A DNA stretch of 64,000 bases from Hyphomicrobium sp. (lineage in GTDB: Bacteria; Pseudomonadota; Alphaproteobacteria; Rhizobiales; Hyphomicrobiaceae), in contig JALHQM010000001.1 of NCBI GenBank assembly GCA_022841965.1, positions 67,868 to 131,867 on the forward strand. The letters are read 5' to 3'. Position numbers and translations under genes: made by a program. Positions within the stretch are counted from its first letter, which is position 1. Every line of letters begins with the position of its first letter. The notes under the pieces are model-generated. The model had not been told where the DNA came from and did no database searches. It saw only the letters and a program-made list of their open reading frames with translations. Shown piece by piece: positions 9,000 to 59,357 of this stretch.

Positions 9000-9728
9000 T
9001 CAATGGTGTTTGTACCAGCCTACGCCACGAATTTCGTTCCAAGAATCGGTTTGATGACAGAGGTGGCATTGCTCAACGCGCGCATGCTCCTGTCCAGCGA
9101 CGATCTTTGAAACCATTTCGAAGTGGCCCATGTAGTGGCTTGGCGGCGCTTGGTGACATTGAGCGCAGTCGGTTGAATTCTGAGACGGATGCTGAAAGCT
9201 GGAAATCTGCCATGTCGATGTCACATGGCAGGCCGCACATTCGACCCCGAAGAGATCGCGATGTGGGCTCTTATTGCTATGGCATTCAAAGCAATAGAGC
9301 TGTGACCTGTTGGACGCGTGCGCAGCATCAGGCGGGCTGGCTACTTCTTGGTGTTTTTCGCGACCAATGGCAATTAGCGCGTCGTGCTGCATCTGAGTAG
9401 GCCGCACCTCATTCTGGTGCTCAATGTGGCAAGCAGTACACGATCCCACAGTTGCATGAAAAGCCGTCGATTGGCGCGCTAAGGTGACGGTGTTTGTGGC
9501 ATGGCATGCGATACAGGCGCTCGCGCTTACTCCGCGGAGTGGAGTGTGGCAGGTCTCGCATTTCTCAGCCAAGAAAGCGTGTCTCGCAGAAAGCTCGCCC
9601 GGGCTCACAAAATTCGACCATTGCGGCACCGCTGAGGATCCGTGGTTGTAGACCGTGCTAATGACCGCCGCGGCGCCTGTCATCGTTGCCGTAATCAAAA
9701 CGAGGTAGGTGAGCATCTTCCGGTTCAT
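9000..9728 (-). CDS. Heptaheme c-type cytochrome
   Basis: 242 residues with seven CXXCH motifs, at residues 57, 72, 97, 146, 164, 188 and 221. One N-terminal hydrophobic segment (YLVLITATMTGAAAVI) either anchors it or is cleaved on export. Many extra His residues could be distal ligands, as in NapC/c7-like multiheme electron carriers. The start ATG at 9728 overlaps the stop of the membrane cytochrome gene (ATGA), so the two are coupled. It is the last gene of the 9000-14429 run and is probably the periplasmic electron carrier of that module. No named cytochrome family is certain. Confidence 0.88.
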   Translation of the reverse strand: MNRKMLTYLVLITATMTGAAAVISTVYNHGSSAVPQWSNFVSPGELSARHAFLAEKCETCHTPLRGVSASACIACHATNTVTLARQSTAFHATVGSCTACHIEHQNEVRPTQMQHDALIAIGREKHQEVASPPDAAHASNRSQLYCFECHSNKSPHRDLFGVECAACHVTSTWQISSFQHPSQNSTDCAQCHQAPPSHYMGHFEMVSKIVAGQEHARVEQCHLCHQTDSWNEIRGVGWYKHH

Positions 9729-10405
9729 GGAAGCCACCGAAGCCCGTAGTAGAGGCCGCTGCTGATGTGCAGCAGCAAGAGCCCGCAAAAGATAATCGAG
9801 GCGATGCTATGCACTACCATCCAGCGTCCAGTGATCCGCTTTGCTGCCTCGCTGAGGGTCAGCGAATACTCGGCATCCGCAATGGCGTCGACGAGGCCCA
9901 GGATTGGCACGGCTGGTACTGCTGTTGAGCGCTCAGACGCTGGGCCTAGGCGTGGCAAGATACGGTCGTAAGCGGATCGCAAGGTGCCGAGCAGCGCCTG
10001 TCGTTGACGCACCTCGCCGGCAATGTGACTGAGGTAGTAGCGCCCGACAAAGCCTGTACCCACGACCACCAGAATGTCGAGCATGAGAGCAATCCCGAGT
10101 ACACTGCGATAACTATGGCCGGAATGCAGGATCGCAAACAGAGCCGCTAGCAATCCGCCGTAGATGTGAAAGCTAAGAAGGCGCCCTAGTGAGATATGCT
10201 GCGTGACGCGGGCCTTCACCCACGGGATGTATTTAATCGCCGGATATAGGAGAACCAGCAGGAAAAGAATTGCCGCCGTAATGCCCAATGCGCCTCCGGC
10301 TAGGCTGCCAGGGAATCTCGGCGAGGCATGGAGTATATAACCGGGTGCCAACAGTAGCAGCAGCGTCCCCAGGGCCAGCACGATCACCTTTTCTTGGTCG
10401 TTCAT
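9725..10405 (-). CDS. b-type membrane cytochrome
   Basis: 226 residues with about five transmembrane helices. Histidines at 80 and 94/97 (SFHIYGG, LHSGHSY) and at 199 and 213 (VVHSIAS, LLHISSG) sit in helices in the arrangement expected for bis-His b-heme ligation, as in cytochrome b561 or ferric-reductase-like proteins. It lies between the flavin/iron-sulfur reductase gene and the heptaheme cytochrome gene, so electrons could pass NAD(P)H-flavin-2Fe2S-heme b-heme c. This route is inference from order and cofactors. Confidence 0.8.
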   Translation of the reverse strand: MNDQEKVIVLALGTLLLLLAPGYILHASPRFPGSLAGGALGITAAILFLLVLLYPAIKYIPWVKARVTQHISLGRLLSFHIYGGLLAALFAILHSGHSYRSVLGIALMLDILVVVGTGFVGRYYLSHIAGEVRQRQALLGTLRSAYDRILPRLGPASERSTAVPAVPILGLVDAIADAEYSLTLSEAAKRITGRWMVVHSIASIIFCGLLLLHISSGLYYGLRWLP

Positions 10406-10425
10406 GTCACGTCTCGTGGTTTAGC

Positions 10426-12789
10426 TCAGGCGTCAACCGTAACGTTGCCCATTGAGCGCGCCTGGCAGGCAAGGATCATGCTGGATGCTTTGTCTTCGTC
10501 GGTTAGTGCATCCTGGACCTCCATGACCACCTGGCCGGCCAGGAGTCTGGTTTTGCAGATGCCGCAGGTCCCAACACGGCAGGAGTAGTCGATCGGCACG
10601 CCAATCGACTCGGCTACTTCCAGCACTGTCCTGTCTGGAGGAAACGGCACCGTCTTGGCGGACCTCGCAAATGACAGCGTTGCCACTGCAGGGCCCGGAT
10701 CGGCGTTGTAGGGGAGTGGAACTCCGGGCGTATCTTCGTTGTGCTCGATGTTCTGTAGCAACTCGATGATTGCCGTTGGCGGTGGCGGCGCAGGCGAAGG
10801 TTGAGATGCTGGGACAGCGCCTTTGGCAGGGCCGAACGCTTCGGTCTTGATCTGGTCGGGCGGCACACCAAGCTCGGCCAGGATACGGCGAATAGCGTCC
10901 ATCATTGGCGGCGGTCCGCAGAGGTGGACCCGCCGCGTCTCAATGCCGGGAACCGCGCGCATGATGGCATCTTTGCTGAGTGGGCCTTCCAAGCCCATCC
11001 AAGCAGTACCATCGGACCGCATAGCGACAGCAGCCGCGACATGAAGTTTTGGCCATCGACGTTGGAGATACTCGAGTTCTTCGCGGAAGATAAACTCTTC
11101 TAGGTTGCGAAGCGCAAAAACCAGAAATATCTCGCCGGGCCATGTCACGTCCGTGAGATATCTGATAATGCACATCATGGGCGTGATGCCTACGCCGCCG
11201 GCGATCAGTACGATGCTGTCCGCGTTGCCGCCGTCGAATGTAAAGGCACCTGATGGGCCTTTGACCTGTATCGTATCTCCGGCGGACACTACGTCGTGCA
11301 GGTAGCGCGAAAATTCGCCCTCGTCCTCACGCTTGACAGTAATCTCGACAAAGGACGTGCGTGTCGGCGGGGACGCAATGCTGTAAGCACGGCGGATGGT
11401 CTTGCCATCCACTGTCGCCGACATGGTCAGAAACTGCCCGGGCACGAAGGTGAAAGGTATGCGCTCAAATCCTGGGGCCACGAGCCGGAATGTCTTCACA
11501 TGAGGTGTCTCGCGGTGGATGGCGGTGACGCGCATTGCACCCGACCAAGTACTGCTTTTTGGCTTCACAGTTTGGGCGAGTGAGGTAACTTCAGCAGCTT
11601 CGAACTGCGCCGGCGGCGGCGCGGGAATTGACGGTACTTGCGCACGTTGGGCCGCTGCCGAAGCGCTTGTCAGGCGGTTTACTAGAGCAACTGACCGGCG
11701 GTGACGGCCTACGGCCATTGCTGCTAGGGTTAGCGTGAATAAAGAAACCGCCACCATGGACATGATGTGGAGCCAGTTCAGCCCAAACAAACCTGCTGAG
11801 CCCTCGGCTGATACTTCGGCAGGCCAGAGATTCATTTGGTCGCGGAAGTAGGTCAGGGCTATCTGGCGCGGAGCTTGGCCTCCTGCTAGGGCGCGCAAGC
11901 CTGCAGTTCCACTTTCCACAACCGCAAGCGCAGCGCGCAGGCGCGAAACAGCTGCAGTCGCTGCTGCTGTGTCGTTGTTCATTATCGCCAGTTGGTAGTC
12001 ACCGTAGGCTTGGACGAGCGAGGTATTGCCCGCACCGATACGGTCGCGTGCGTCGGCCTCGATTCTGGCGCGCGCTTCCGGCGTCATGGCCGGGAGCTCC
12101 ATCAGTTGGGGATAGAGCTGTTTGCTGTACGTCCCGCCCATCGTACCTCCCATCATGTCTTGCATGCCGCGCGGGGCTGGAGGAGCGGCGGACGGGACTT
12201 GAAGCGGCGTTGCGACGGAGGGGGCGTCGGCGGGGACGGGCGATTGATTTCCATGATGCGCCGCGTGGGGATCGAGCGCCAGCGCCTTGATGGGAGTTAA
12301 GCAGACGATCAATGCTACGGCGACTGCGACTTTTCTGGCGGCAGTCAAGGCAATTGTAGGGATCACGATCCATTGCATAAGTGGAGATAATCCGGTCCCA
12401 ATTATAGGGACCACGGGCATGAGAGAAGAATATGCCCAGCTTTCCCTAACTACAATATTGAGCCACTCGCTGAAAATCGTATAGCCAACACCCAAGCAGA
12501 GGGTAAGAACAAGGACAGAATTGTGCCGTTCGCCCGGCCAGTTCTTTGTGCCAGCAAAGATGAGGGCGATGATGAGCGCGGCGAGAGCAATCAACGCATC
12601 GCCAAAAGTGCAATGAACAACGGCAAAGGCTATTTCGCGTGCCGTCCCGATCGTCCAGATGGTGTAGAGTGGAAGTTGCAAAATCTCCCAGATGAGATTC
12701 GCAACCATTATCACAGCCATATATGTGCTAATAGCACGGAGCCAATCTGGCGGCGCGGGGTGCGGCGGAGGGAATTCGCTCGATCTCAT
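10426..12789 (-). CDS. Large membrane FAD/NAD(P) reductase with 2Fe-2S domain, N-terminal membrane fusion
   Basis: 787 residues. GGAAG precedes the ATG at 12789, which overlaps the stop of the 56-aa gene (ATGA). Order of parts: four helices (about 20-160), a signal-like segment ending near ALA-LDPHAAHH (171), a Met/Gly/His linker (MQDMMGGTMGG), a helical domain (225-330), a helix (338-360), then a cytosolic ferredoxin-reductase domain with RAYS (468) for FAD and GGVGITP (531) for NAD(P), and a C-terminal plant-type 2Fe-2S domain (CRVGTCGIC plus a later Cys). The first 165 residues look like a separate small membrane protein fused on. It probably feeds electrons to the membrane cytochrome encoded downstream. 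Confidence 0.85.
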   Translation of the reverse strand: MRSSEFPPPHPAPPDWLRAISTYMAVIMVANLIWEILQLPLYTIWTIGTAREIAFAVVHCTFGDALIALAALIIALIFAGTKNWPGERHNSVLVLTLCLGVGYTIFSEWLNIVVRESWAYSSLMPVVPIIGTGLSPLMQWIVIPTIALTAARKVAVAVALIVCLTPIKALALDPHAAHHGNQSPVPADAPSVATPLQVPSAAPPAPRGMQDMMGGTMGGTYSKQLYPQLMELPAMTPEARARIEADARDRIGAGNTSLVQAYGDYQLAIMNNDTAAATAAVSRLRAALAVVESGTAGLRALAGGQAPRQIALTYFRDQMNLWPAEVSAEGSAGLFGLNWLHIMSMVAVSLFTLTLAAMAVGRHRRSVALVNRLTSASAAAQRAQVPSIPAPPPAQFEAAEVTSLAQTVKPKSSTWSGAMRVTAIHRETPHVKTFRLVAPGFERIPFTFVPGQFLTMSATVDGKTIRRAYSIASPPTRTSFVEITVKREDEGEFSRYLHDVVSAGDTIQVKGPSGAFTFDGGNADSIVLIAGGVGITPMMCIIRYLTDVTWPGEIFLVFALRNLEEFIFREELEYLQRRWPKLHVAAAVAMRSDGTAWMGLEGPLSKDAIMRAVPGIETRRVHLCGPPPMMDAIRRILAELGVPPDQIKTEAFGPAKGAVPASQPSPAPPPPTAIIELLQNIEHNEDTPGVPLPYNADPGPAVATLSFARSAKTVPFPPDRTVLEVAESIGVPIDYSCRVGTCGICKTRLLAGQVVMEVQDALTDEDKASSMILACQARSMGNVTVDA

Positions 12790-12956
12790 GTCACTTCCGG
12801 CGATCGAGCCTCGAGAAATAAGCTGAAGAAGATGTAGTTGATGAGCACGGCCGCAATCAGCACGGAAACAAGTGTCAAAAGCCACCCGCTGAGCCCCATG
12901 CTCCACATCATGGAGCGATTTGTCATCACGTCTCGCACGTTCCCAAGGTCCGCCAT
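12786..12956 (-). CDS. 56-residue single-helix membrane protein
   Basis: The frame begins MADLGNVRDVMTNRSMM and has one hydrophobic helix (SGWLLTLVSVLIAAVLINYIFF) with a short tail RSPEVT. The stop overlaps the reductase start (ATGA), and the start lies 4 bases after the stop of the 157-aa gene. That spacing on both sides argues that it is real. It resembles the small subunits that sit beside membrane redox enzymes, but no family is recognised. Confidence 0.7.
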   Translation of the reverse strand: MADLGNVRDVMTNRSMMWSMGLSGWLLTLVSVLIAAVLINYIFFSLFLEARSPEVT

Positions 12957-12960
12957 CTCG

Positions 12961-13434
12961 TCACTGTATGTCGATCGTATGTGCCGAAAGTCGCGTCAAA
13001 CTGACCGAGAACCAACTGAAGATGACAACATCAATCAGCGTTGCCAATGTGGCCTGCACCATCACAATCACCTCAAATATTGATAGTGCGTTGGTCCCCC
13101 GCATCCAATCGACGAACGCGTAAATGACGACGAAGAGGGGGAGCAGGGAGAACAGGATCTCGATCATGGTGTGCATCGCGCCACCGCGCGGCTGGGCCAG
13201 AACGGATCTCGCCTGCCAAGCTACGTAAAGCAATGCAATGACACCGACCCAGGATACGTGCCTCATCGCCTCGTCAACGTCCGGTAGCTCTGGTGAATGT
13301 CCCCACCACAGAACGTACAAAAGCAGGGTAGAAAGGATGAGCGGCGCGCCGTGATTGAGCAGGAACGCAAGGAGACCGAGTCCACTGCTATGTTTAATCG
13401 GCGCTCCGCCGGCTTCCTGATGAGAACTCTTCAT
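12961..13434 (-). CDS. Four-helix membrane protein, unknown
   Basis: 157 residues with about four transmembrane helices (LLAFLLNHGAPLILSTLLLYVLW, VGVIALLYVAWQA, IEILFSLLPLFVVIYAF, a long C-terminal helix). It has charged loops but no recognised motif. It is followed after 4 bases by the 56-aa membrane gene and so belongs to the proposed redox operon. It could be a structural or heme-binding subunit: His28 is within a helix, but no second helical His is obvious. Confidence 0.75.
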   Translation of the reverse strand: MKSSHQEAGGAPIKHSSGLGLLAFLLNHGAPLILSTLLLYVLWWGHSPELPDVDEAMRHVSWVGVIALLYVAWQARSVLAQPRGGAMHTMIEILFSLLPLFVVIYAFVDWMRGTNALSIFEVIVMVQATLATLIDVVIFSWFSVSLTRLSAHTIDIQ

Positions 13435-13485
13435 ATCACGACCGCCTCATGAACTGATTGTTTGCAGTGAAGATCAATACTCAGC

Positions 13486-14139
13486 TCAGGTCGGAGCCCC
13501 GGTTAATCTCGAGATGCGAGGAAAAAAGCCGGGAACCCGAGCGGTGTACTTTCGATAGACATCACCGAATTCGGTGAAAGCCTCGCGCTCTTCTTGGTGT
13601 GCCAATCGAATATACATCCACACGAGGACGGGAAACATGAGCAGTGTGAGAATTGTTGGCCACTGCAGAAGAAAGCCAAACATAACCATGATAAAGCCTA
13701 TATACTGGGGATGCCGGACATAGGAATAAGGACCGGTGGTCGCGAGCGACCTTTCGCGCTGTGCTCTATACAGGACGTACCAAGCATTTGAAATCAGCAT
13801 GAATCCACCCGCAATGAAGACAAAGCTAAGAATATGGAAGGGCCCGAAATGTGGGTTTGCTTTCCAGCCGAAAATCATCTCGAGCAAATGTCCGGCATCG
13901 TGAGACAGCCAATCCACGGTCGGGTATCGGCTCTGTAACCAGCCAGACATGAAATATATGGTCAACGGAAATCCGTACATCTCTGTGAACAGTGCCACAA
14001 GGAAGGCGCTGAACGCGCCGAACGATCGCCAGTCGCGGGCGGTTTTCGGTTTGAAGAATGTGTATGCAAACACGATGAACACTATCGAGTTGATGAGGAC
14101 CAGGCTCCACAACCCATAGGCAGACACTGGCTCGTTCAT
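13486..14139 (-). CDS. Isoprenylcysteine carboxyl methyltransferase-like membrane protein
   Basis: 217 residues with about five helices. The C-terminal half has the ICMT/PEMT signature: GPYSYVRHPQYIGFIM, then HQEEREAFTEFGDVYRKYTARVPGFFP, which binds S-adenosylmethionine. Bacterial members (sometimes called NnrU/MddA-like) methylate lipids, thiols or unknown small molecules. The start overlaps the stop of the DUF2933 gene (ATGA). The substrate is unknown; its place in a metal and redox operon is typical of these islands. Confidence 0.85.
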   Translation of the reverse strand: MNEPVSAYGLWSLVLINSIVFIVFAYTFFKPKTARDWRSFGAFSAFLVALFTEMYGFPLTIYFMSGWLQSRYPTVDWLSHDAGHLLEMIFGWKANPHFGPFHILSFVFIAGGFMLISNAWYVLYRAQRERSLATTGPYSYVRHPQYIGFIMVMFGFLLQWPTILTLLMFPVLVWMYIRLAHQEEREAFTEFGDVYRKYTARVPGFFPRISRLTGAPT

Positions 14140-14429
14140 GACTTGCCTCTTTCCGTTTCCACTTGATTTTCGGTCGCCTCTTGAGCGCCAGAGTTGTCTT
14201 GATCGCTGTGTTGTCTATGTCCACTGTGGTCCCCGTGCCCGAACATGTGAAGCAGTGGGCAGGCGAGAAGAAACAGGAAAGGCAGAATCCCCAAGACATG
14301 CGCCCTGTGCTCGGTGAAGAGCAGTGCTCCTCCCATAGCCAGAAATGCCCACAGAATGAAACCGCTACGCGAGGTCCAGAAGCCGCCACCGCCTCCTGTT
14401 TGATGACGCGCGTGTTCGTAGTTTTCCAT
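14136..14429 (-). CDS. DUF2933 small membrane protein
   Basis: 97 residues: a soluble N-terminus (YEHARHQTGGGGG), two hydrophobic segments (FILWAFLAMGGALLF, VLGILPFLFLLACPLLHMF) and a His-rich tail (GHGDHSGHRQHSDQD). This is the usual layout of DUF2933 proteins, which accompany copper and silver resistance genes. The tail may bind metal. It is coupled to the ICMT-like gene by ATGA. A shorter relative lies at 19361-19621. Confidence 0.8.
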   Translation of the reverse strand: MENYEHARHQTGGGGGFWTSRSGFILWAFLAMGGALLFTEHRAHVLGILPFLFLLACPLLHMFGHGDHSGHRQHSDQDNSGAQEATENQVETERGKS

Positions 14430-14550: not shown

Positions 14551-14823
14551 TCATTGTCTGGTTGCCGAATTATACGCGAAGGCGAAGACTGCACCCAAAG
14601 CAAAGCCAACCAGCGCCAAGCCGGCCAAACCAAACACAAACAAGTAGAGACTGAAGGGCTGTGTCGATTTCAGCGGCGCCAGGTCGAGGCCGTGAGCGAA
14701 CGAGTTGAAGAATGTCATCACGCCGTCCGGCCAAATGGCGACCGCAGCCGCGCAAACAGTATTCAGAACGGAAAGTGTGATTGCGGTGGCTATGCCAGCC
14801 GGCAAAGGATCTATTCTATTCAT
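14551..14823 (-). CDS. DUF5676 membrane protein
   Basis: 90 residues; AAGGAG precedes the ATG at good spacing. Two long helices (ATAITLSVLNTVCAAAVAIW and LYLFVFGLAGLALVGFALGAVFAF) with FFNSFAHGLDL between them, the DUF5676 pattern. These proteins co-occur with DUF2933, DUF305 and copper ATPases. Function unknown. About 120 bases separate it from the DUF2933 gene downstream. Confidence 0.75.
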   Translation of the reverse strand: MNRIDPLPAGIATAITLSVLNTVCAAAVAIWPDGVMTFFNSFAHGLDLAPLKSTQPFSLYLFVFGLAGLALVGFALGAVFAFAYNSATRQ

Positions 14824-15142: not shown

Positions 15143-15931
15143 TCAATGGAACACCATTCCGGCGACATGAAATCCCGCGTCGGCATGAAGAACCTCCCCC
15201 GTGATCGAGGCACCATAGTCACTGGCGAGAAGGACCGAGACACGGCCGATCTCGCAGGCATCAACAGTCCTTCTCAGCGGAGCCTTGGCCGCGGCTTCGA
15301 GAAGCAGTTCGTCGAAATGTTCGATGCCAGAGGCGGCACGGGTTTTGACGGGGCCAGCCGATATTGCATTGACACGAATGCCCTTCGGTCCGAGTTCGTG
15401 CGCGAGATAGCGAACCGTCGCCTCCAGCGCTGCCTTCACTGGTCCCATGACGTTGTAGTGATCGACAACCTTCTCTGCACCGTAGTAACTGAGCGTAATG
15501 AGGGTCCCTCCTTGCTGCATTAGCGGCTCGGCGAGCCGCGCCATGTGAATAAAAGAATGACAGGAGATCAACATTGACTGGGTAAAACCTTCTGCGGAGC
15601 AATCCGTCAGGCGCCCGCGAAGGTCCTCCTTTCGTGCAAAGGCAACAGCATGGAAGATAACATCAACCGTCCCCCACTTCTCTTTGAGCGCATCGAACAC
15701 GGTTTCGAGCTGACCTGGGGCTGCGACATCGCACGGCACCAGAATTTCGGCGCCGAGTTCCGTCGCAAGAGGCGCAACGTGCGGCTTGGCCTTGTCGTTC
15801 AAGTAGGTCATTGCGACGTCTGCGCCAGCATTTCTGATGTGCTTCGCCGCCCACCAGGCCAAACTGTCCGCGTTCGCCACACCAACAATGAGGGCCTTCC
15901 GTCCTTTAAGGTCGATAGTTTCCTTTGTCAT
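15143..15931 (-). CDS. fabI: Enoyl-[acyl-carrier-protein] reductase FabI
   Basis: 262 residues, full length for FabI, which reduces trans-2-enoyl-ACP with NADH in the last step of each fatty-acid elongation cycle. Seen: the variant nucleotide-binding start LIVGVANADSLAW, the active-site Tyr/Lys in the segment YNVMGPVKAALEA, and the FabI-type end GEVLHADAGFHVAGM. A chromosomal FabI is expected elsewhere, so this is probably a second, accessory copy, as found beside pta/ackA in related bacteria. It may adjust membrane lipids together with the cyclopropane synthase encoded upstream, or confer tolerance to FabI inhibitors. Confidence 0.93.
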   Translation of the reverse strand: MTKETIDLKGRKALIVGVANADSLAWWAAKHIRNAGADVAMTYLNDKAKPHVAPLATELGAEILVPCDVAAPGQLETVFDALKEKWGTVDVIFHAVAFARKEDLRGRLTDCSAEGFTQSMLISCHSFIHMARLAEPLMQQGGTLITLSYYGAEKVVDHYNVMGPVKAALEATVRYLAHELGPKGIRVNAISAGPVKTRAASGIEHFDELLLEAAAKAPLRRTVDACEIGRVSVLLASDYGASITGEVLHADAGFHVAGMVFH

Positions 15932-16101
15932 TGTTTTCTCGATTTTCGATCGTCAGCGACTGACTTGTCTTCCACGACTATTGAACATTACTGACGAACA
16001 TGGATCCCCATAGGCACAAACCGCTTGTCAGTTCGGCGTTCGCTGGTATTCGTTCGATCCAATACTGTGCAGCTTTTTCAGCCAGCTCGATTTGCATGAC
16101 C

Positions 16102-17109
16102 TCACCCAGGCAATGGACAGCACGCCGTCTCGGGTTGAGGTGCGCATTCAAGAGGCCGATCGCCGGGAATATTTGTTGGACGGGCGAGCTTGGCGCTTTC
16201 GTGATGGATAAGTGCGGCGAGCGCTAGGGCCGTAAGCCGGGCCCGGGACTGGTCGGCACGAGAACTCAAGACGACGGGCGCTGACACACCGAGCACTATT
16301 CCGGCCGCAACCGCATCGGCAAGGTATTCCAGATTTTTCGCTAGAATGTTGCCGGAGACCAAATCAGGTACCAGCAGGATGTCGCATTGACCTGCAACCT
16401 TTGATGCAATGCCTTTTTCGTCTGCTGCACGGAGCGAGATCGCATTATCGAAGGCAAGGGGACCATCGATAACCGCGCCAGTGATTTGGCCACGCTGGCC
16501 CATCAGCGCCAGGCAGGCTGCGTCGATTGTAGAGGGGATCGCTGGATTGACCGTTTCGATGGCAGACAACGCAGCCACCCGTGGATTTTCGACGCCGAGC
16601 AAATGGCACAGTTCAATCGCGTTCTGAAGGATTTGCGCTTTGGCATTGACGTCCGGAGCGATGTTGATCGCGGCATCCGTGATGAAAAGCAGCTTTGAGT
16701 ACGAGGGGATATCACACAGGAAAACGTGGCTTACCCTCCGACCCGGAAGGCGGAGGCCACGTTCGGAGTCTAAGATTGCGTGCATCAAAGCATCGGTGTG
16801 AATTTGGCCCTTCATGAGTACGTCGGCCTTTTGGTCGCGCACAAGCTTGACTGCCGCGGCGGCCGCACTCTCGTCGCTCTTTGCTTCGATAACGTGATCC
16901 GCGCTAACGCGGAGCCCAACTGATGCGGCAAGGTCGCGGATGACACGGGAATCGCCAATAAGGGTTGGTTCGGTCAGGCCGAGATCTCCGGCATCGCGCA
17001 AGGTCTCGAGGACGACCTTCTGGGCCGCATTCACGACAGCGACTCGAATGGGCGCCAAACCTCTGCTCCTTTCAATGAGGTCATTGAACTTGCGTTGTTC
17101 AAGGGTCAT
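16102..17109 (-). CDS. pta: Phosphate acetyl/butyryltransferase
   Basis: 335 residues of the PTA/PTB family, interconverting acetyl-CoA and acetyl phosphate. Seen: ADVLMKGQIHTDALM, the FITDAAINIAPD segment and IVLGVSAPVVLSSRADQ. It lacks the N-terminal hydratase domain found in some alphaproteobacterial relatives annotated as bifunctional, and is the size of the short bacterial enzymes. The ATG overlaps the acetate kinase stop (ATGA), so the two are coupled into a substrate-level ATP-forming pathway. Butyryl specificity cannot be excluded. Confidence 0.9.
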   Translation of the reverse strand: MTLEQRKFNDLIERSRGLAPIRVAVVNAAQKVVLETLRDAGDLGLTEPTLIGDSRVIRDLAASVGLRVSADHVIEAKSDESAAAAAVKLVRDQKADVLMKGQIHTDALMHAILDSERGLRLPGRRVSHVFLCDIPSYSKLLFITDAAINIAPDVNAKAQILQNAIELCHLLGVENPRVAALSAIETVNPAIPSTIDAACLALMGQRGQITGAVIDGPLAFDNAISLRAADEKGIASKVAGQCDILLVPDLVSGNILAKNLEYLADAVAAGIVLGVSAPVVLSSRADQSRARLTALALAALIHHESAKLARPTNIPGDRPLECAPQPETACCPLPG

Positions 17110-18377
17110 GAGCGGCTCGCCTCCTGTCCGAGTGCTGGATTGGCACTGAGCCGCAAGACGTGTCGCGCGATCATGTGTTCCTCGTCCGAGACAAGTGTTT
17201 GTACGGTCACGGCAGCCCCATGTGCCGAGATCGTAGCAGCGTTTGCCTGATTTGCTGCGATGTCGATCCTGAGGCCGAGATAGGCGAGCCCTTGGCAGAT
17301 GTTCTCGCGTATTTCGGAAGCGTATGCGCCAATGCCACCCGTGAATACGAACCGGTCAATGCCCCCGAGAGACGCGGTAAGCGCCGCCAAGTGATGTCGC
17401 GCCCGATAGCAGAAAAGTTCGATCGCCTCCTTCGCTGGCGGGTCGTCACGGCGATTTAATAGTTCGCGCATATCGCTGGAAATACCGGAAACCCCGAGAA
17501 GTCCCGACTTTTTGTACAGCAGGTTCTGCACCGCGCCGGCATCCAGTCCCATTGCCGTCATAAGGTAGAGGACTGCGCCAGGATCAAGGTCACCGGACCT
17601 CGTCCCCATCATCAGGCCTGCAAGCGTGCTGAACCCCATTGTCGTCTCGACGCTCCGACCATTTCGGAGCGCACACATGGAAGCACCGTTTCCCAAATGC
17701 GCGACGATGATTCGCTCCTGCTCGACATTCACGCCCTGTTCGCGCAGTGTCCCGACGACGTACTCGTATGACAGGCCATGAAATCCGTACCTCCGAATTC
17801 CGCCATCTTGAATCGCGCGGGGTAACCCTGTGAGCCGCGCAAGCCGGGGTAGGGTGTGATGAAAGGCGGTGTCAAAACACGCGACTTGAAGAAGGCTTCC
17901 ATCAATCTCCCGTATGGCCGAGATTCCGGCAAGGTTATGAGGCTGATGCAGGGGAGCCAGCGGGATCAGCCGTTTCAATCTTGCCTCAAGCTCTCGTGTC
18001 ACGGGGAGCGGACAGTCGCAGTCTGATCCACCATGCACAACCCTATGGCCAACAGCGACAAGCGTTGGGGTAGCGGGTCGATTTTTTAGCGTGTTAAGCA
18101 GAAGGGCGAGCGCCTCGCGGTGGCTTGCGAGCGAAACTGGTGTTTCAACCAAGACCTTCCCAGTCGAGTCCTTCACACGCATTCGTCCCTGCGGCAGCCC
18201 GATACGTTCGAGGGCGCCTGAAAAGAGCCGCGGCATCTTACGTTCCGTCGCGAACAGGGCGAATTTGACGCTAGATGAACCGCTGTTGATCACCAGGATC
18301 GCGGTGCCGGATGACGAGGGCGTTTTCACTTTTTCTGTAGCTCTTTTGCTGTAGCTCTTTGTTGGTCGCAGCTTCAT
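17106..18377 (-). CDS. ackA: Acetate kinase
   Basis: About 423 residues; converts acetyl phosphate and ADP to acetate and ATP. ASKHA-fold motifs: ILVINSGSSSVKF, the catalytic ACFDTAFH, MMGTRSGDLDPG and FTGGIGAYASEIRE. The start is unclear: ATG at 18377 lacks a good ribosome site, and a GTG at 18329, nearer the usual family start, is possible. Between them lies a 12-bp direct repeat (18335-18346 and 18349-18360). It is coupled to pta downstream. Confidence 0.92.
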   Translation of the reverse strand: MKLRPTKSYSKRATEKVKTPSSSGTAILVINSGSSSVKFALFATERKMPRLFSGALERIGLPQGRMRVKDSTGKVLVETPVSLASHREALALLLNTLKNRPATPTLVAVGHRVVHGGSDCDCPLPVTRELEARLKRLIPLAPLHQPHNLAGISAIREIDGSLLQVACFDTAFHHTLPRLARLTGLPRAIQDGGIRRYGFHGLSYEYVVGTLREQGVNVEQERIIVAHLGNGASMCALRNGRSVETTMGFSTLAGLMMGTRSGDLDPGAVLYLMTAMGLDAGAVQNLLYKKSGLLGVSGISSDMRELLNRRDDPPAKEAIELFCYRARHHLAALTASLGGIDRFVFTGGIGAYASEIRENICQGLAYLGLRIDIAANQANAATISAHGAAVTVQTLVSDEEHMIARHVLRLSANPALGQEASRS

Positions 18378-18503
18378 CAACGTCAACGACCGCGCAAGCG
18401 GTAGAACCATTGCGACGCAACACGTTATGCTTGTCATGCCAGTTTAGTCCTGGTCAGAACCATCCAGAACGCGCGGTACTGCGGACTGAAAAGGCTAGGA
18501 TAC

Positions 18504-19088
18504 CTATCTTTGCCCTTTCATCTTCAGCCACTCCGTGAGCAAGCCGATTTCAGCTTCTTGAGCCTTAATGATGCTTTCGGCCATTTTTCGGGTTTCGGGA
18601 TCTTTGCCGAATGCGAGCGCCGTTCTTGCCATATCGATCGCGGCTTGATGATGCGGGATCATGCGTTTGACAAAGTCGACATCGGGGTCGCCGGTAAACG
18701 GCATTGTCATTTCCCGGGCCATCTTTGCAATAAGACTGTTGAATGCTTGGCTTGATGGCCCTGTGTCACCCTCTGGCTGAATGGCCATGCCGCCGCCTAT
18801 CATCTTGTTATGCATCTCCTGCATCATCTTCATCATGGGCATCTGATCCCCGCTCGTCATTCCTCCCGTTGCCCCGGTTCCTCCCATTCCTCCCATTTCA
18901 CCCATGTCTGCTATGCGATCCCCCACTCTACGTACTGTTTCCGACGGGCTCGATCGGTCAAGCTGGCCTGTTGGCGCCGCGGCCAGAGGGGGGCCGTCGT
19001 GCGAAGACGCAGCGGACACACCTTCTGTCGAAGCTAAAATCAGCCCAAAAATCACCGCTAAGGTTTCCGAACTTGCTCTTGTCGTCAT
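18504..19088 (-). CDS. Secreted DUF305 protein
   Basis: 194 residues from the ATG at 19088, with GGAGG 9 bases upstream. A signal peptide (SETLAVIFGLILASTEGVSA) is followed by a Gly/Met linker (MGEMGGMGGTGATGGM and MPMMKMMQEMHNKMIGGGM), then a complete DUF305 domain: DPDVDFVKRMIPHHQAAIDMA and KMAESIIKAQEAEIGLLTEWL. The Met-rich linker and His pair suggest periplasmic copper binding. It lies between two small metal-binding proteins and acetate kinase. Confidence 0.9.
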   Translation of the reverse strand: MTTRASSETLAVIFGLILASTEGVSAASSHDGPPLAAAPTGQLDRSSPSETVRRVGDRIADMGEMGGMGGTGATGGMTSGDQMPMMKMMQEMHNKMIGGGMAIQPEGDTGPSSQAFNSLIAKMAREMTMPFTGDPDVDFVKRMIPHHQAAIDMARTALAFGKDPETRKMAESIIKAQEAEIGLLTEWLKMKGQR

Positions 19089-19119
19089 GGCGCATGACCT
19101 CCAAATTTCTAACTCTCGT

Positions 19120-19314
19120 CTATTTTTGAACTTTTGAGCCACCGCAACAGCCGCCCGACTTCGCTGTGTCCTGGTGCTCATGGTTGGCGGATGCTGGAGC
19201 CTGTGGTTTTTGGCTGCCAACCGCCTTCTGGTCCTTGGCCTTCGTCTCGCCGCAGCAGCCGTGGCTCTTTTGGTCATTCGAAGTGTGTTCGTTTGGACTG
19301 GTGATCTTTGACAT
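19120..19314 (-). CDS. Small Cys-rich cytosolic metal-binding protein
   Basis: 64 residues; GAGGAG lies 7 bases before the ATG at 19314. Two CCG clusters (SHGCCGETK near residue 20 and SGGCCGGSK at the end) are joined by a polar Lys/Gln/His linker (ANHEHQD). There is no signal peptide. This layout, short with paired CCG motifs, suggests a copper or other soft-metal buffer. No family name is certain. Confidence 0.75.
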   Translation of the reverse strand: MSKITSPNEHTSNDQKSHGCCGETKAKDQKAVGSQKPQAPASANHEHQDTAKSGGCCGGSKVQK

Positions 19315-19360
19315 ATCAACTCTCCTCGTGTTCTGGTTCTGCGCTTCAATAGAGTTAAGA

Positions 19361-19621
19361 TCAGCAACCGTGGCGGTTATCTGTGCTTTGATGGGTACCA
19401 GTGGAGGGCACGTTCGTGTGTAACGAATGAGTGGTCGCTCCCGCGACCGGAGATAGCATCGTTGTTGTGACCTGGGGCGGTTTGGTATCGCGGCTTTCGG
19501 TGCTGCCAGAGTGGCGGCGGTGTCGGCTTCCATGCCCATGCCCGCCGTGTCCGAACCAATGCAGTGCAACGAACCCGATCAGAATAGCGATCCAGAGCCA
19601 ATTACTTGCAAGCCATTCCAT
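19361..19621 (-). CDS. Small DUF2933-like membrane protein with His-rich stretch
   Basis: 86 residues from ATG at 19621, with AGAGGA upstream. One N-terminal helix (WLASNWLWIAILIGFVALHWF) is followed by GHGGHGHGSRHRRH and a low-complexity Thr/Ser tail. It resembles the second helix and tail of DUF2933 proteins. It probably sits in the inner membrane with the His cluster binding metal. Confidence 0.7.
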   Translation of the reverse strand: MEWLASNWLWIAILIGFVALHWFGHGGHGHGSRHRRHSGSTESRDTKPPQVTTTMLSPVAGATTHSLHTNVPSTGTHQSTDNRHGC

Positions 19622-19652
19622 CTTCGTGTTCCTCTTCCGAAAAAGTAAAATG

Positions 19653-20906
19653 TCACTCGGCTGCAATCGGCAAGTCCTGCTGGCAACCCTCTTTGGATCT
19701 AAGTTCAACTTCACGTTGGCCGATGTAGTCGCGGGTCAACGGAACAGCGTCCTGCCGTTTGGCAATCTGGATCTGAAAGACCATCAGGCCCGAGTACCGG
19801 AACGCGCTTTCGCACGCCGCCAAGTAAAACTCCCACATGCGGCAGAAGCGGTCGTCGTAAAGCCCCTTCGCCTCATCGCGCCGCGCGATAAAGCGCTCCC
19901 GCCACGCTCGCAGAGTGTCTGCGTAATGGAGGCGCAGAATCTCGACATCGGTGACCACCAGCCCCGCCCGCTCGATTGCAGGGAAGACTTCGGAAAGTGC
20001 CGGCGCATAACCGCCCGGGAATATGTACTTGGCCATCCAGGGATTGGTCGCGCCAGGGCCGTCCATCCGCCCTATCGAGTGGAGTAACATCACTCCGTCG
20101 TTGGCCAGAAGTTGCGCGGCCTTATCGAAGAAGGCACAGTAATAATTAACTCCAACATGCTCGAACATGCCAACAGATACGATTCGATCAAATGGTTCCG
20201 AAACCGACCGATAGTCTTGCAAACGGAACTTGACTCGCCCCCCGAGATCTTCCTGCTGTGCGCGTTGTCGCGCGACGCTGATTTGCTCTTTGGAGAGGGT
20301 AATGCCGGTGACTTCCGCTCCGCACGACTTGGCCAGATAAAGCGCCAGTCCGCCCCACCCCGAACCAATATCAAGAACGTGCTGGCCAGGTCTGATGAGA
20401 AGCTTTGCAGCGATGTGACGCTTCTTCGCAAGTTGCGCCTCGTCAAGACTAAGACCGGGCTCATCGAAGTATGCGCAAGAATACTGGCGGTCGGAATCCA
20501 GGAAAAGATCATACAGGCGGCCATCGAGATCATAGTGGTGGGCGACGTTTCGCGTCGCACTTATCGAGCTGTTTCTTTGCTGAAATGATCGCACCGCAGT
20601 ACGGAGTCTGGTCAACGCCTTTGCAATCCCGGGAGGCTCCTGCAGGCCCAAGTTGCGAGATACGAGCGCCAGCACGTCATAAATTGAGCCGCGCGTGACG
20701 AGGAGACGTCCATCCGTGAAGAGTTCGCCGAACGCAAGCGATGGATTTATAACCAGCTGACGTTCGACGGCCGGGTCCGCAAAGCGAATCCCGACGCGAG
20801 CGCCGGTTCCGTCGCCAAATGCAAACTGTTGCCCTGTCGCGGTCTCGACGTCGAGCGCACCTTCTCTCACAATCCTATGCAAAAATGTGCGCAGCACCGT
20901 AAGCAT
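19653..20906 (-). CDS. cfa: Cyclopropane-fatty-acyl-phospholipid synthase
   Basis: 417 residues. It transfers a methylene group from S-adenosylmethionine to unsaturated acyl chains of membrane phospholipids. The SAM site VLDIGSGWGGLALYLAK is clear, followed by GITLSKEQ, RIVSVGMFEHVG and the C-terminal WEFYLAACESAFR. Start: ATG at 20906 with GGAGAG just upstream, placing it 1 base after the DUF3141 stop. Cyclopropanation stabilises membranes under acid, metal or stationary stress, which fits the neighbourhood. Confidence 0.93.
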   Translation of the reverse strand: MLTVLRTFLHRIVREGALDVETATGQQFAFGDGTGARVGIRFADPAVERQLVINPSLAFGELFTDGRLLVTRGSIYDVLALVSRNLGLQEPPGIAKALTRLRTAVRSFQQRNSSISATRNVAHHYDLDGRLYDLFLDSDRQYSCAYFDEPGLSLDEAQLAKKRHIAAKLLIRPGQHVLDIGSGWGGLALYLAKSCGAEVTGITLSKEQISVARQRAQQEDLGGRVKFRLQDYRSVSEPFDRIVSVGMFEHVGVNYYCAFFDKAAQLLANDGVMLLHSIGRMDGPGATNPWMAKYIFPGGYAPALSEVFPAIERAGLVVTDVEILRLHYADTLRAWRERFIARRDEAKGLYDDRFCRMWEFYLAACESAFRYSGLMVFQIQIAKRQDAVPLTRDYIGQREVELRSKEGCQQDLPIAAE

Positions 20907-20907
20907 T

Positions 20908-22731
20908 CTACTCTCCGTACATGTTCGTGAAAGCTCGTTCCTGCGCCGCATCACGCAGCTTCCGCGCTGATTCCCAGAAACCGGAAATTTCGGCAATCAA
21001 CTTGCGCTCCTGTGCCATCAGCGGGTGATCATCGCGAATGGCGTGCCGGTCCTTGCTGACGGCATCAGCGAGTACGGCGAAGGCGCCCATCCAGGGCACG
21101 AAGCGCTCCGACCAGAGATAGGTTTTCGTGCGCATCGGATGCAACCATTGCATCGCTTCTGAAAGCCAAGGGTTGGCGATCGCCTTGACCCAAGGGCTCA
21201 CGAATGAGCGATAGATGGCTTCGTTAAACTCAGAGACCTTCTGGACCCGCTGGAAGGCGGCGCGCGGATAGTCGAAATGCAAGTCCTCGACGTTGCGTGG
21301 TTCGAAGCGCACTGAATACTGATCCCGTTCGCACTCCGGATTACCCGTCGGATTGTCGATTTTCATTTCGTAGAGACCTGGCACAAGCGCCTCGATCTCT
21401 TGCAGGTTCTCGATAATCGCCCGGTGTTCAAAACGCGCAACGCTGGCCGAAACAAAGATCCCCAGATGTCCGATATGGGGATTGGTTAAATAGACGATGC
21501 GTTGCCCCGCCTTCTTGAGAGCTTCGGTGCTTTTGTAGATGGCCGGAACCCAACCAAGCGCTTGGTGTGGTGGTGTGATGTTGTCGCCATAGGAGGCAAA
21601 TATAATAAGGGGACAAGTTATTTTTTTGAGATCGATAGTGCAGTGCTCATCTATCCGGATTTCACCTTGTTCGAGCCTGTTGCCCACGAACAGATCCTCG
21701 ACGATAGAGACGATCTCTTCGCCGGAAAGCCGGTAAAAACCATTCCACCAGCGTTCGAAATCCAGGAACCGATCACTTTCGCTATCGATTTTGGTGAACA
21801 GGTTTGCGTATTTGTCCCAGACGGCATTGCCGGGCTTGAGGGTTTCAAAGTTTTGAACGAGCCAAGCGCCGTCAAAGCGGTTTCTGTTTAGATCCGCCAA
21901 GAAATGCGTCAGCCAAACGCCGCCGACGAACCCACCCATGAGCCGCAGTGGGTTTGCCCCAGGTTCGCCCTCCCAATAAGAGAGTGGCGAGCCGTTCAAG
22001 ACCGTCGGCCCGATTTTGTCAGGGCAATGAGCCGCTAGGAGTGTTGCTGCCCAGCCGGCTTGACAGTTGCCATAGAGCACTGGCGCTCTTCCGCTATGTC
22101 GCGCAGCTACCGCTTCCGCGAAGCGCCGCAGGGCTGCGAGGACGTCGACAAGCGTTTGATGTGGGCAGGGCTCGGGGAAAAAGACGACGAAATAGACAGG
22201 ATGGCCCGTGTGAAGTGCGACGCCCACTTCCGAATCGCGCTTAAACCCGCCGATACCCGGGCCATGTCCCGCTCGCGGATCAAGCACAATGACAGGCGGC
22301 TTGTTTAAGTCGACGCAGTCGTCCCAGCAATCCTCACCAACTTCAGTGATCCGCAGAAGCGCGTAGTTCGCCGGGCGCTCGAAGAGACGCGCATCGAGCA
22401 GCATTTCGTACTTGAAGTTGAGAAGGGGCGGCAGTCCTGCATCTTCGTGTTCAAGCATGTTGTTCGCGCGGCGGCGCAAGGTATCGAAGAACAGTATCGT
22501 TCGCTCGAGAACGTCTCTTTGATACTCAAATACTTCGAAGGGTGACGGGAGAGTGAGAGTCGACGATGACGGGTCTGGAACCGATTTTTCGTTGCTCGGG
22601 CGTTGCTTGGGTTGTTCCGCTTGCTGCGAAACCTTGGCCGTCGGACGCGGTGGAACCAATAGTGGAGCGGTCGCTCGGCCGCCTCCAGTAAGCGGATTGG
22701 TCGACACAGATGTCTTCCTTACGACGGTCAT
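20908..22731 (-). CDS. DUF3141 alpha/beta-hydrolase-like protein (PhaC-related)
   Basis: 607 residues from ATG at 22731, with GGAG 9 bases upstream. The middle has an alpha/beta-hydrolase core related to polyhydroxyalkanoate synthases: VYFVVFFPEP, LYGNCQAGWAATLLAAH (GNCQAG in place of the lipase-like GxCxG box) and later PLIIFASYGDNITPPHQALGW and NPHIGHLGIF for the Asp and His. The family often sits with pta, ackA and fabI. The reaction is not known. It heads a minus-strand run into cfa, preceded by an FNR/FixK-like box. Confidence 0.85.
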   Translation of the reverse strand: MTVVRKTSVSTNPLTGGGRATAPLLVPPRPTAKVSQQAEQPKQRPSNEKSVPDPSSSTLTLPSPFEVFEYQRDVLERTILFFDTLRRRANNMLEHEDAGLPPLLNFKYEMLLDARLFERPANYALLRITEVGEDCWDDCVDLNKPPVIVLDPRAGHGPGIGGFKRDSEVGVALHTGHPVYFVVFFPEPCPHQTLVDVLAALRRFAEAVAARHSGRAPVLYGNCQAGWAATLLAAHCPDKIGPTVLNGSPLSYWEGEPGANPLRLMGGFVGGVWLTHFLADLNRNRFDGAWLVQNFETLKPGNAVWDKYANLFTKIDSESDRFLDFERWWNGFYRLSGEEIVSIVEDLFVGNRLEQGEIRIDEHCTIDLKKITCPLIIFASYGDNITPPHQALGWVPAIYKSTEALKKAGQRIVYLTNPHIGHLGIFVSASVARFEHRAIIENLQEIEALVPGLYEMKIDNPTGNPECERDQYSVRFEPRNVEDLHFDYPRAAFQRVQKVSEFNEAIYRSFVSPWVKAIANPWLSEAMQWLHPMRTKTYLWSERFVPWMGAFAVLADAVSKDRHAIRDDHPLMAQERKLIAEISGFWESARKLRDAAQERAFTNMYGE

Positions 22732-22785
22732 TGCAGAGGTCTCCAAGCATTAACTTCAAAGTGAGCGCCGGGCCGTTGCCTGCAC

Positions 22786-22843: not shown

Positions 22844-22938
22844 AGCTGAAGTGCCTGTGGTGCCTGCTCGGGGCCATTGTGCGATGCTGGAGTTTCCAAT
22901 CACTGGAAGGTCAAGAGAAATTTGAGGTTCCGAAGGCG

Positions 22939-23340
22939 ATGCGCATAGGCGAGGCAGCTCTGTTATCTGGGGTTTCGGCGAAGCTGATCCGATACTACGA
23001 GAACGAAGGCTTATTGAGCCCGGCAGGGCGCGATAAAAATGGATACCGGGATTTTGATGATCGCAACGTGTACGAGCTTCGCTTTATCAAACGCGCTCGC
23101 GCCCTCGGATTTCCGATCAAGCAAATCGCCGAGTTACTCAGCCTTTGGCGCGACACGAGGCGACCCAGCCGCAAGGTACGCGCGCTCGCTGAGAATCATA
23201 GGCAGGCGATCGCCTCTCGAATGGAGGCACATCGGGAGATTATCGACGTGCTCACGCGATTGATAGAGTCCTGTCGTGGCGACGACCGCCCTGAGTGCCC
23301 AATCTTGGAGGAGTTCGGAACAAGACGGATGCATCGATAA
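22939..23340 (+). CDS. MerR-family copper-responsive regulator (CueR-like)
   Basis: 133 residues. The N-terminal winged helix has MRIGEAALLSGVSAKLIRYYENEGLL, then a long dimerisation helix. Near the end Cys112 and Cys120 (SCRGDDRPECP) are spaced as in CueR, where they hold Cu(I); a Ser77-equivalent that excludes divalent ions can be placed at the helix (PSRKV). A GAAGGCG ribosome site precedes the ATG. It is divergent from the DUF3141/cfa run. It probably activates copper genes by distorting a 19-bp-spacer promoter; its targets here are not certain. Confidence 0.88.
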   Translation: MRIGEAALLSGVSAKLIRYYENEGLLSPAGRDKNGYRDFDDRNVYELRFIKRARALGFPIKQIAELLSLWRDTRRPSRKVRALAENHRQAIASRMEAHREIIDVLTRLIESCRGDDRPECPILEEFGTRRMHR

Positions 23341-23509
23341 TTAGAACAGGCCTTGTGACGCCCTTAGGGCCGTTTTACTATTCCAATCGCTCGCCGGGCT
23401 GAAACATCGACGGGTTTAAGGATAAGCAGAGTTTGATGACTTCAAATCGGGGAGGGCGACTAAATGGCGGTGAACGCCAAGCAGTGTGACCGTAAGCGGT
23501 TTCGAACTG

Positions 23510-24190: not shown

Positions 24191-24260
24191 CAGAACTTGC
24201 CTTACAGTTTGTTTTTCATATGAGCGGCGGTTCGCGTTCGAATCTAAATTTTGCGGCTGC

Positions 24261-25037: not shown

Positions 25038-25091
25038 TGTCTTAAACTCCGATCGTTCGATAGCAGACGGGAGAGACGACTACCCCACATT

Positions 25092-25577: not shown

Positions 25578-25599
25578 TTCATTGTCCTGGTGATACGAG

Positions 25600-29528: not shown

Positions 29529-29684
29529 TCTTGGAACTCCTTTAGCAGTGTTCTCTTCATCTTCGAAACAAGCGCGCCGCGTTCCCGTTCTCCGGCGGCA
29601 CAAGGATGGTGCGTCTCACGCTAACGCGCGCTCCATCACTGACCGGCTCTTTCGGTACTTGTGTGCAGCACGATGCACCTGAAC

Positions 29685-52679: not shown

Positions 52680-52767
52680 CAGGCGCCATCAAAGAATGTC
52701 GGGATAAGTTAAACGCCCGCTGAGGCAGAGACTTCGCGCAGCGAGCCCGGCGCATCATTCTCAGCAC

Positions 52768-54135: not shown

Positions 54136-54150
54136 AAGAACGAGCCCCCC

Positions 54151-59345: not shown

Positions 59346-59357
59346 GGTTTGCAGCGG

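Follow-up and report, generated by a model that had tools for sequence, protein, structure and literature searches.

A conserved trio of a reductase, a membrane b-type protein and a heptaheme cytochrome c, a candidate electron gate between NAD(P)H and the periplasm, in a metal island of Hyphomicrobium sp.

The window analysed here is a 64,000-nucleotide stretch of the draft genome of Hyphomicrobium sp. (assembly GCA_022841965.1, 150 contigs, 88.8% complete; contig JALHQM010000001.1, positions 67,868 to 131,867). Seven close-packed open frames run on its minus strand from position 14429 down to 9000, and an initial annotation of the DNA had read all seven as a single trans-envelope electron-transfer module within a metal island. 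All seven genes are present as frames on that strand and are as tightly packed as described, with ATGA overlaps, read from the sequence, at three junctions (DUF2933/ICMT, 56-residue protein/reductase and b/c). Two starts need correction: the reductase most likely begins at 12789, giving 787 amino acids (aa) and an ATGA overlap with the 56-aa gene, rather than at a GTG at 12906, and the cytochrome c gene most likely begins at 9728 (242 aa), the 262-aa frame at 9000-9788 being the same gene with an unlikely TTG start. The last three genes, referred to here as the trio, and the parts of the reductase are as follows.

10426-12789, minus strand: 787-aa reductase fusion, with a membrane domain (about residues 1-155), a signal-peptide-like helix, a His/Met-rich and helical periplasmic part (about 172-330), a transmembrane helix (about 339-365) and a cytoplasmic FAD/NAD(P)/2Fe-2S reductase (about 415-787)
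12325-12789, minus strand: the membrane domain at the N-terminus of the reductase fusion, encoded by a separate gene elsewhere
11836-12126, minus strand: the helical region in the reductase's periplasmic part, conserved across 24 aligned sequences
9725-10405, minus strand: five-helix membrane protein of 226 aa, a predicted bis-heme b-type electron wire
9000-9728, minus strand: membrane-anchored periplasmic heptaheme cytochrome c of the cytochrome c3 family, 242 aa

To find relatives we used the b-type protein as the query, because it is the rarest part of the locus (52 plasmid records matched, versus 1745 for the reductase). A genome scan with 257 pattern matches yielded 210 relatives, the best 80 of which were kept; together with 14 plasmid loci these gave 94 related loci, selected by similarity to the b protein or the reductase and including some near-duplicates, which fall into 58 groups at 90% b-protein identity. 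Relatives of the reductase, the b protein and the cytochrome c are all encoded in 94 of the 94 (tblastn). A frame with at least three CXXCH motifs lies just downstream of the b gene in every one, and a reductase frame lies just upstream of it, on the same strand, in 91, the reductase frame being unresolved in L019, L066 and L106. As for the four genes upstream of the trio, DUF2933 was found in six and ICMT in seven of the 58 dereplicated loci, and within 1 kb of the trio in none and in one, respectively. Neither the 157-aa nor the 56-aa protein was found by tblastn in any of the 94 loci; the former had no plasmid match either, and for the latter the search is insensitive because the query is short. 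Since these four upstream genes do not accompany the trio, the seven-gene module was rejected: sought in other genomes, as the initial annotation had proposed, its last three genes alone co-occur. Conservation was read from alignments of genome loci, plasmid loci being excluded, which comprised 52 b proteins (the window and 51 of the 80 genome loci), 35 reductases (the window and 34 of the 44 dereplicated genome loci with a reductase frame) and 24 periplasmic parts of the reductase (the window and 23 of the 34).

The reductase matches FAD_binding_6 (E 3.8e-15), NAD_binding_1 (E 1.5e-15) and Fer2 (E 4.8e-15), all above the Pfam cut-offs, in agreement with the three cofactor domains first annotated; no NCBIfam equivalog reached its cut-off among the matches listed (25 of 31). 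The four 2Fe-2S cysteines, the RxYxIxS positions for FAD and the GGxGxTP positions for NAD are invariant in the 35 aligned sequences. Members of the family share one order of parts, in which a signal-like helix is followed by a conserved DxHAxHH motif, a Met-rich stretch (in some with Cys), a helical part and one transmembrane helix, after which come basic residues and then the predicted cytoplasmic FAD/NAD/2Fe-2S part. An AlphaFold2 model of the window's reductase has a mean pLDDT of 72.3 and a pTM of 0.40, with low confidence over much of residues 1-221. Among PDB sequences the FAD/NAD part matches 1tvc (methane monooxygenase component C) best, and the set of FAD, NAD and 2Fe-2S domains is that of PDR/BenC-type flavin reductases and of component C. 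Unlike the PDR/BenC type, this reductase is tethered by a transmembrane helix to a periplasmic His/Met-rich part, and its neighbour is a membrane b protein, not an oxygenase. Judged by its composition, the His/Met-rich part probably binds copper. A relationship of the periplasmic part to neighbouring LTXXQ/Spy-type proteins was considered and found unsupported (hhalign probability 0.2 per cent).

A short variant of the reductase, in two genomes of one genus (G233 and G342), has the periplasmic part, the transmembrane helix and the 2Fe-2S domain without FAD or NAD domains. This variant fits a role of the 2Fe-2S domain as the direct partner of the b protein, and suggests that this domain contacts the b protein and that the electron source is exchangeable. 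One copy of the variant lies at L140:8110-9561, where the b and c genes follow it; the variant reductase was also seen in L119 and L120.

The N-terminal membrane domain of the window's reductase is a feature of its own, found in none of the 94 related trio loci. Its relatives occur on 114 plasmid records, and in the two that were examined it is a separate gene: in Tritonibacter mobilis a protein of 166 aa (57.6% identity) in an operon with DUF411, DsbA, SCO, PCu(A)C and CcdA, and in Acuticoccus one of 143 aa (59.7% identity) in an operon with DUF411, SCO and CcdA, so that its operon partners are copper and cytochrome assembly genes. The fusion point coincides with the C-terminal end of the membrane protein and lies immediately ahead of the reductase's own signal-like helix; the window's reductase may be a true fusion or an artefact of the draft assembly.

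In the b protein six histidines (H26, H80, H94, H97, H199 and H213) are invariant in all 52 aligned sequences, and H80-x13-H94 and H199-x13-H213 are each exactly 14 residues apart in every one, so that the two His pairs of the cytochrome b first annotated hold throughout the homologues. The second pair is preceded by a tryptophan (W195-x3-H199-x13-H213) in 50 of the 52, and an [ST]GxxG motif at 117-121, on helix 4, is also found in 50, position 117 being S in 24, T in 27 and C in 1. At position 76 on helix 3 there is L in 40 and W in none, so WX3H is absent from that helix. An AlphaFold2 model (mean pLDDT 85.6) predicts helices at 3-25, 35-67, 73-94, 102 to about 125 and about 196-222, with putative membrane limits, and, between about 125 and 196, a long hairpin of helices; it is consistent with five membrane helices and with His pairs on helices 3 and 5. 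The loop at 57-76 has a mean net charge of +4.65, and the hairpin is rich in K and R (9.15 on average) and near neutral overall. Topology was assigned by the positive-inside rule: because the loop at 57-76 is strongly positive, H80 and H199 would lie on the cytoplasmic side and H94 and H213 on the periplasmic side.

Matches of the b protein to known families are weak. The window's copy matches Ferric_reduct (PF01794, E 0.065) and DUF4405 (E 0.079); among the 52 homologues Ferric_reduct is found at E <= 1 in 26 (best E 0.0017) and DUF4405 in 46 (best E 6.8e-7). A profile search of PDB sequences gave seven matches (best E 0.16), one of them the putative ferric reductase 5o0t, and SpNOX (8qq7) ranks 18 for the model, with a Foldseek E of 0.97. 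We dropped a fold assignment for this subunit, for which Foldseek and VIA gave nothing above common helical arrangements.

A closer counterpart comes from published descriptions. The inner-membrane proteins (IMPs) of the PCC3 and PCC4 systems have five helices, WX3HX13H on helices 3 and 5 and SGxxG on helix 4, and shorter IMPs with HX13H adjoin orphan multiheme cytochromes, mostly together with ‘another redox protein’ (He et al. 2017, PMC5566968). By that description the b protein resembles the PCC3/PCC4 IMPs in its five predicted helices, HX13H on helices 3 and 5, [S/T]GxxG on helix 4 and WX3H on helix 5, and it resembles them and the orphan IMPs in lying next to a multiheme cytochrome c gene. 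It differs from the former in its length (226 aa versus about 300) and in having no W before the His pair of helix 3, while the trio differs in its partner, which is an NAD(P)H/FAD/2Fe-2S reductase and not a quinone pool as proposed there, and in its seven hemes versus a median of 21 or 34 (PMC5566968). No gene annotated as a porin lies directly beside the trio in the plasmid loci shown, where annotations were read and no porin model was run. Some of the orphan clusters of that paper may be this trio; relative to its passages on the IMPs, what is new here is the reductase, which uses NAD(P)H and carries a His/Met-rich ectodomain, together with the contexts of copper, low oxygen and hydrogenase. 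The initial annotation knew of no named system with this composition. For the trio that holds, as we found no paper naming it in the open-licence literature; for the type of membrane subunit it does not, given the counterpart in PMC5566968.

Seven CXXCH motifs are present in the window's copy of the cytochrome c, which is thus heptaheme as first annotated, and Cytochrom_c3_2 (PF14537) matches at E 3.6e-7, with 31 bits against a cut-off of 25. Seven motifs are likewise found in 89 of the 94 relatives; the other five have 3, 3, 3, 3 and 6, two of these loci being cut by contig ends and three having apparently broken frames.

The genomic surroundings of the trio were scored in the dereplicated loci. 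At least one tested metal gene is present in 42 of the 58, which agrees with the metal-island setting first proposed, and among the loci of at least 20 kb in 24 of 34. CopA-type multicopper oxidase (MCO) genes are found in 29 loci, CopB in 16, P-type ATPases in 16 and RND pumps like the window's CusA in 10, counts that depend on the queries used (L020 was scored as having no metal gene despite annotated CopC, CopD and RND genes). With the same MCO query, 151 matches were obtained from 22 host genomes (about 137 Mb), a part of all hosts; about 0.02 would therefore be expected per 20-kb locus, which is an overestimate because pieces of one gene were counted apart. RND pumps and P-type ATPases are also present in the window (named by eye) and annotated in its relatives. 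A periplasmic protein of the LTXXQ family was detected by similarity in 28 loci; in 23 it lies outside the trio, and in 19 no more than 1 kb away from it. Of the 58 loci, 11 contain OpgC and 10 an extracytoplasmic-function (ECF) sigma factor; the two come together in six Bradyrhizobium loci without tested metal genes (L072, L084, L092, L095, L097 and L108), two of which lie on scaffolds of 7.5 and 2.5 Mb.

FNR/FixK boxes, defined by the strict pattern TTGAYNNNNRTCAA, are also concentrated around the trio. There are 64 in the 1.07 Mb of the 58 loci, where 20 first-order Markov sets average 2.95 and reach 5 at most; at least one is present in 33 loci, and 15 lie upstream of the reductase at a distance of 1.3 kb or less, spread over 12 of the 56 loci with a resolved reductase. 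As a host control, 22 genomes of about 137 Mb hold 955 boxes, or 7 per Mb (the reversed pattern gives 100), while the 24 loci from those genomes hold 36 in 0.476 Mb, or 76 per Mb, roughly ten times the density of the hosts' genomes. Five of the 24 have none, and one, L071, is not listed with its own genome in this control and shares a contig with L049. Low-oxygen control is in this sense a property of many of the family's neighbourhoods. Genes that these neighbourhoods share with Table 2 of the microoxic FixK2 regulon of Bradyrhizobium diazoefficiens include the DUF2933-ICMT-hypothetical operon, HlyD/ABC, phosphoketolase, oleate hydratase and thymidine phosphorylase (PMC9104804). Acetate kinase, which appears in the same table, is found in the window, and no gene of the trio was recognised in the parts of the table compared (PMC9104804).

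In light of these data, we consider it probable that the trio is an inner-membrane gate for electrons between NAD(P)H and the periplasm, acting at low oxygen and/or under copper stress. Its three genes would specify a single enzyme of the inner membrane, through which electrons pass between the NAD(P)H pool of the cytoplasm and the periplasm. In the cytoplasmic reductase, which is helix-tethered to the membrane, NAD(P)H would reduce FAD and then the 2Fe-2S cluster; the cluster would in turn reduce a b heme held by H80 and H199 on the cytoplasmic side, and this one a second b heme held by H94 and H213 on the periplasmic side, the two being stacked across the membrane within the five-helix protein. 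From there electrons would reach the membrane-anchored heptaheme cytochrome c and a periplasmic partner, and a role in gating or localising the enzyme may fall to the reductase's His/Met-rich periplasmic part. Such a gate could vent reducing power or hold a periplasmic component in the reduced state; its current would be outward with periplasmic oxidants, and an inward current to NAD(P)+ would be possible with an adjacent periplasmic HynSL hydrogenase and H2. As far as the c hemes these putative steps rest on conserved sites and gene adjacency, and beyond them on context. The cofactor inventory of the initial annotation is supported, and its path from NAD(P)H by way of FAD, 2Fe-2S and two b hemes to the c hemes is plausible. 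Its label ‘trans-envelope’ is wider than the evidence, by which the path can be traced as far as the periplasm.

Several points weigh against this assignment. The Ferric_reduct match of the window's b protein, at 13.7 bits, is below the 28-bit gathering cut-off; its model has no significant match in the PDB (best Foldseek E 0.18), and the VIA rows for it are mostly coiled coils, ABC transporters and long-helix arrangements. The b-heme content and the enzyme activity of the trio are predictions from sequence, and the copper binding of the reductase's periplasmic part is suggested by composition only; hhalign shows no relation of this part to the adjacent LTXXQ proteins of metal-sensor type. Sixteen of the 58 loci have no tested metal gene, so copper is not a universal context. 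The window has no FNR/FixK box by the strict pattern, while its own genome has 21, and 25 of the 58 loci have none, so low-oxygen control is not shown for this copy; with a published wider consensus, three matches were found in the first 30 kb of the window (for the part listed), none of them at this operon. There is also no [NiFe]-hydrogenase large subunit (PF00374) in the genome, within the 88.8% that is covered.

The best surviving alternative, which we hold to be possible if on balance doubtful, is that the trio is a copper-specific reductase, acting on periplasmic Cu(II), or on Cu(I) to give Cu(0), in support of CusCBA-type Cu(I) export or of precipitation. It would account for the metal genes near 42 loci and the MCO in 29, for the His/Met-rich periplasmic part and for the RND pumps and P-type ATPases seen by eye in the window and annotated in relatives. 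However, neighbouring MCOs would be expected to re-oxidise Cu(I) under aerobic conditions, 16 loci are free of tested metal genes, and the hydrogenase neighbours described below would need another role. A tentative combination, on the unlikely side, is a mobile, reversible gate controlled by copper, in which the ectodomain would sense periplasmic metal directly and, at low oxygen, electrons would leave NAD(P)H for the heptaheme cytochrome or H2-derived electrons would come in from a periplasmic hydrogenase and yield NAD(P)H; within it, the outward branch would amount to reductive copper detoxification or to an electron sink when copper poisons respiration.

Hydrogenase genes raise another alternative. 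At distances of 1.6 to 7.3 kb, the trio has HynSL-type [NiFe]-hydrogenase genes as neighbours in Alteromonas, in a Xanthobacteraceae bin, in a Bradyrhizobium bin and in Reyranella/Enhydrobacter loci, with HynS in 4 and HynL in 3 of the 58 dereplicated loci. In Alteromonas HynSL lies downstream of the trio, with three genes between, and its HynS carries a twin-arginine signal (by eye) and would therefore be periplasmic; in the Reyranella representative HynS is partial, and both genes are present in the Enhydrobacter and Rhodospirillaceae members of its group. The cloned Alteromonas cluster consists of orf1/cyt/orf2/hynD/hupH/hynS/hynL and hyp genes, and Orf1 and Cyt were unnecessary for maximal hydrogenase activity in E. 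coli (PMC3102683). Gene order makes it most likely that orf1 and cyt correspond to the b and c subunits of the trio; the passages of PMC3102683 on the Alteromonas macleodii cluster give them no function, and as the construct listed there begins with orf1, the upstream reductase was apparently not included. The gene at the place of ‘orf2’ (L020:13563-14786) encodes by eye a multi-helix membrane protein of the amino-acid-permease type, which would be odd for a hydrogenase accessory protein. In the sample of the order, 5 of the 9 genomes with a b subunit have a hydrogenase large subunit (E <= 1e-100), versus 68 of 397 overall, an overlap in which several genomes share a genus or family; in these five the hydrogenase lies apart from the b subunit, on a different contig in four and at a distance of about 984 kb in one.

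It has thus to be asked whether the trio originally linked a periplasmic HynSL to NAD(P)H, in the direction from H2 to NAD(P)+ or towards H2 evolution as an electron sink, and was left over or re-used in copper islands. The four lineages with HynSL-type genes nearby, the place of Orf1 and Cyt in the cloned cluster (PMC3102683) and the excess of large subunits among related b-subunit genomes speak for such an origin; yet the genes are near the trio in only 4 of 58 loci, the window's genome lacks the hydrogenase, and none of the five genomes with both has them close together, with the consequence that hydrogenase was rejected as a general partner. The dispensability of Orf1 and Cyt in E. coli (PMC3102683) also counts against it, with the limit that it tests maturation and not electron transfer in the natural setting. 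Overall we regard this origin as unlikely.

A function like that of the NOX enzymes, or as a peroxidase, with electrons passing to O2, H2O2 or oxidised periplasmic proteins, appears similarly improbable. NOX proteins carry bis-histidyl motifs in helices 3 and 5 (PMC5676040), and the trio shares with the NOX/FRD superfamily (SpNOX, MsrQ) the bis-His pairs on the third and fifth helices, its four histidines being placed in the same way, and an FNR-type NAD(P)H/FAD dehydrogenase feeding two b hemes (PMC5676040); a multiheme cytochrome c could in addition act as a peroxidase. In contrast to NOX/FRD as described there, the trio divides these parts between two polypeptides and has an extra 2Fe-2S domain and a dedicated heptaheme acceptor. 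The b protein has five predicted helices where NOX has six, the dehydrogenase is on a separate chain, and H(PSA)F[TS][LIMV] is absent, the FAD site having RxY[ST] in place of the NOX motif H(PSA)F[TS]; the b subunit with its reductase is outside the published definition of NOX (PMC5676040). Moreover, FNR/FixK boxes around the trio point to low oxygen, and a seven-heme relay would be unneeded for O2. Very unlikely, finally, is a decaying or inactive window copy whose N-terminal fusion is an accident of assembly or recombination: the fused domain is absent from all 94 relatives and the genome is a draft, but the three frames are intact, conserved cofactor positions are kept, and the signal-like helix is retained behind the fused domain, where an internal start could restore the short form.

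Upstream of the trio lie the remaining four genes of the locus and one further gene, which is possibly on the same transcript.

12786-12956, minus strand: 56-aa one-helix membrane protein, with an ATGA overlap to the reductase
12961-13434, minus strand: 157-aa membrane protein, found in 3 of 397 genomes of the order (own included)
13486-14139, minus strand: ICMT/PEMT-like membrane methyltransferase (PF04191 E 7e-9, PF04140 E 2.6e-8)
14136-14429, minus strand: DUF2933 membrane protein (PF11666 E 8.3e-19)
14551-14823, minus strand: DUF5676 two-helix protein, the further gene (PF18926 E 1.6e-26)

The 157-aa and 56-aa proteins have no credible family in Pfam or NCBIfam, and a table in PMC8478169 lists DUF2933 and ICMT genes next to copper P-type ATPases. 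Next to the operon, at window 15143-22746, is a row of genes for FabI, a phosphotransbutyrylase/acetyltransferase, acetate kinase, CopM/DUF305, cyclopropane fatty acid synthase and DUF3141; in the 58 trio loci DUF3141 is found in 7, FabI in 1, Ptb in 1 and the window's acetate kinase in none. Beyond it, at 22879-29603, come a CueR-like regulator, DUF6629 and a PPK2 polyphosphate kinase, then a thiolase and a metal P-type ATPase (these two by eye). HipA-like, ArdC-like, replication-initiator-like and ParA-like proteins at 51351-61706 (by eye) suggest that the island sits on a plasmid or an integrative element. To the left of the window (G000:C1:48000-67900, L141) the metal island goes on, with a further CzcA-like RND pump and a CopM-like gene.

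Hosts of the trio are found among the Alpha-, Beta- and Gammaproteobacteria, the Bacteroidota and the Planctomycetota. Within the order the b protein is present at E <= 1e-20 in 9 of 397 sampled genomes (own included). Among 60 relatives (own included), strong matches were confined to the window's own genome and one of the same family (G007, which is not among the nine), with weak matches in five further genomes (best E 1.8e-7); none of the five genomes of the same genus gave a match. The closest relatives among the best 80 of 210, at 75-78% in the b protein, are Reyranella and metagenome bins of the Hyphomicrobiales and Rhodospirillales. This sporadic occurrence, together with the plasmid matches, points to horizontal spread of the trio. 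Plasmid pBBta01 of Bradyrhizobium BTAi1 (L016, L029) has three places like the b protein, with two complete trios seen, one of them directly preceded by zwf and gnd; another class III cytochrome gene is also present.

If the preferred reading of the trio as a gate between NAD(P)H and the periplasm is true, the three genes would be a small, horizontally transferred redox module that brings electrons from NAD(P)H to a periplasmic multiheme cytochrome without quinones, and that has a likely metal-sensing part on the enzyme itself. How interesting the module is will be decided by its acceptor. Genes without a proper name (‘iron reductase’, ‘orf1’, ‘cyt’), found repeatedly in copper islands and next to HynSL hydrogenases, would be accounted for by this module, and a connection of copper resistance with the disposal of electrons at low oxygen suggests itself. 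The Alteromonas hydrogenase, studied for H2 production, may then lack part of its natural electron partner in the construct of PMC3102683.

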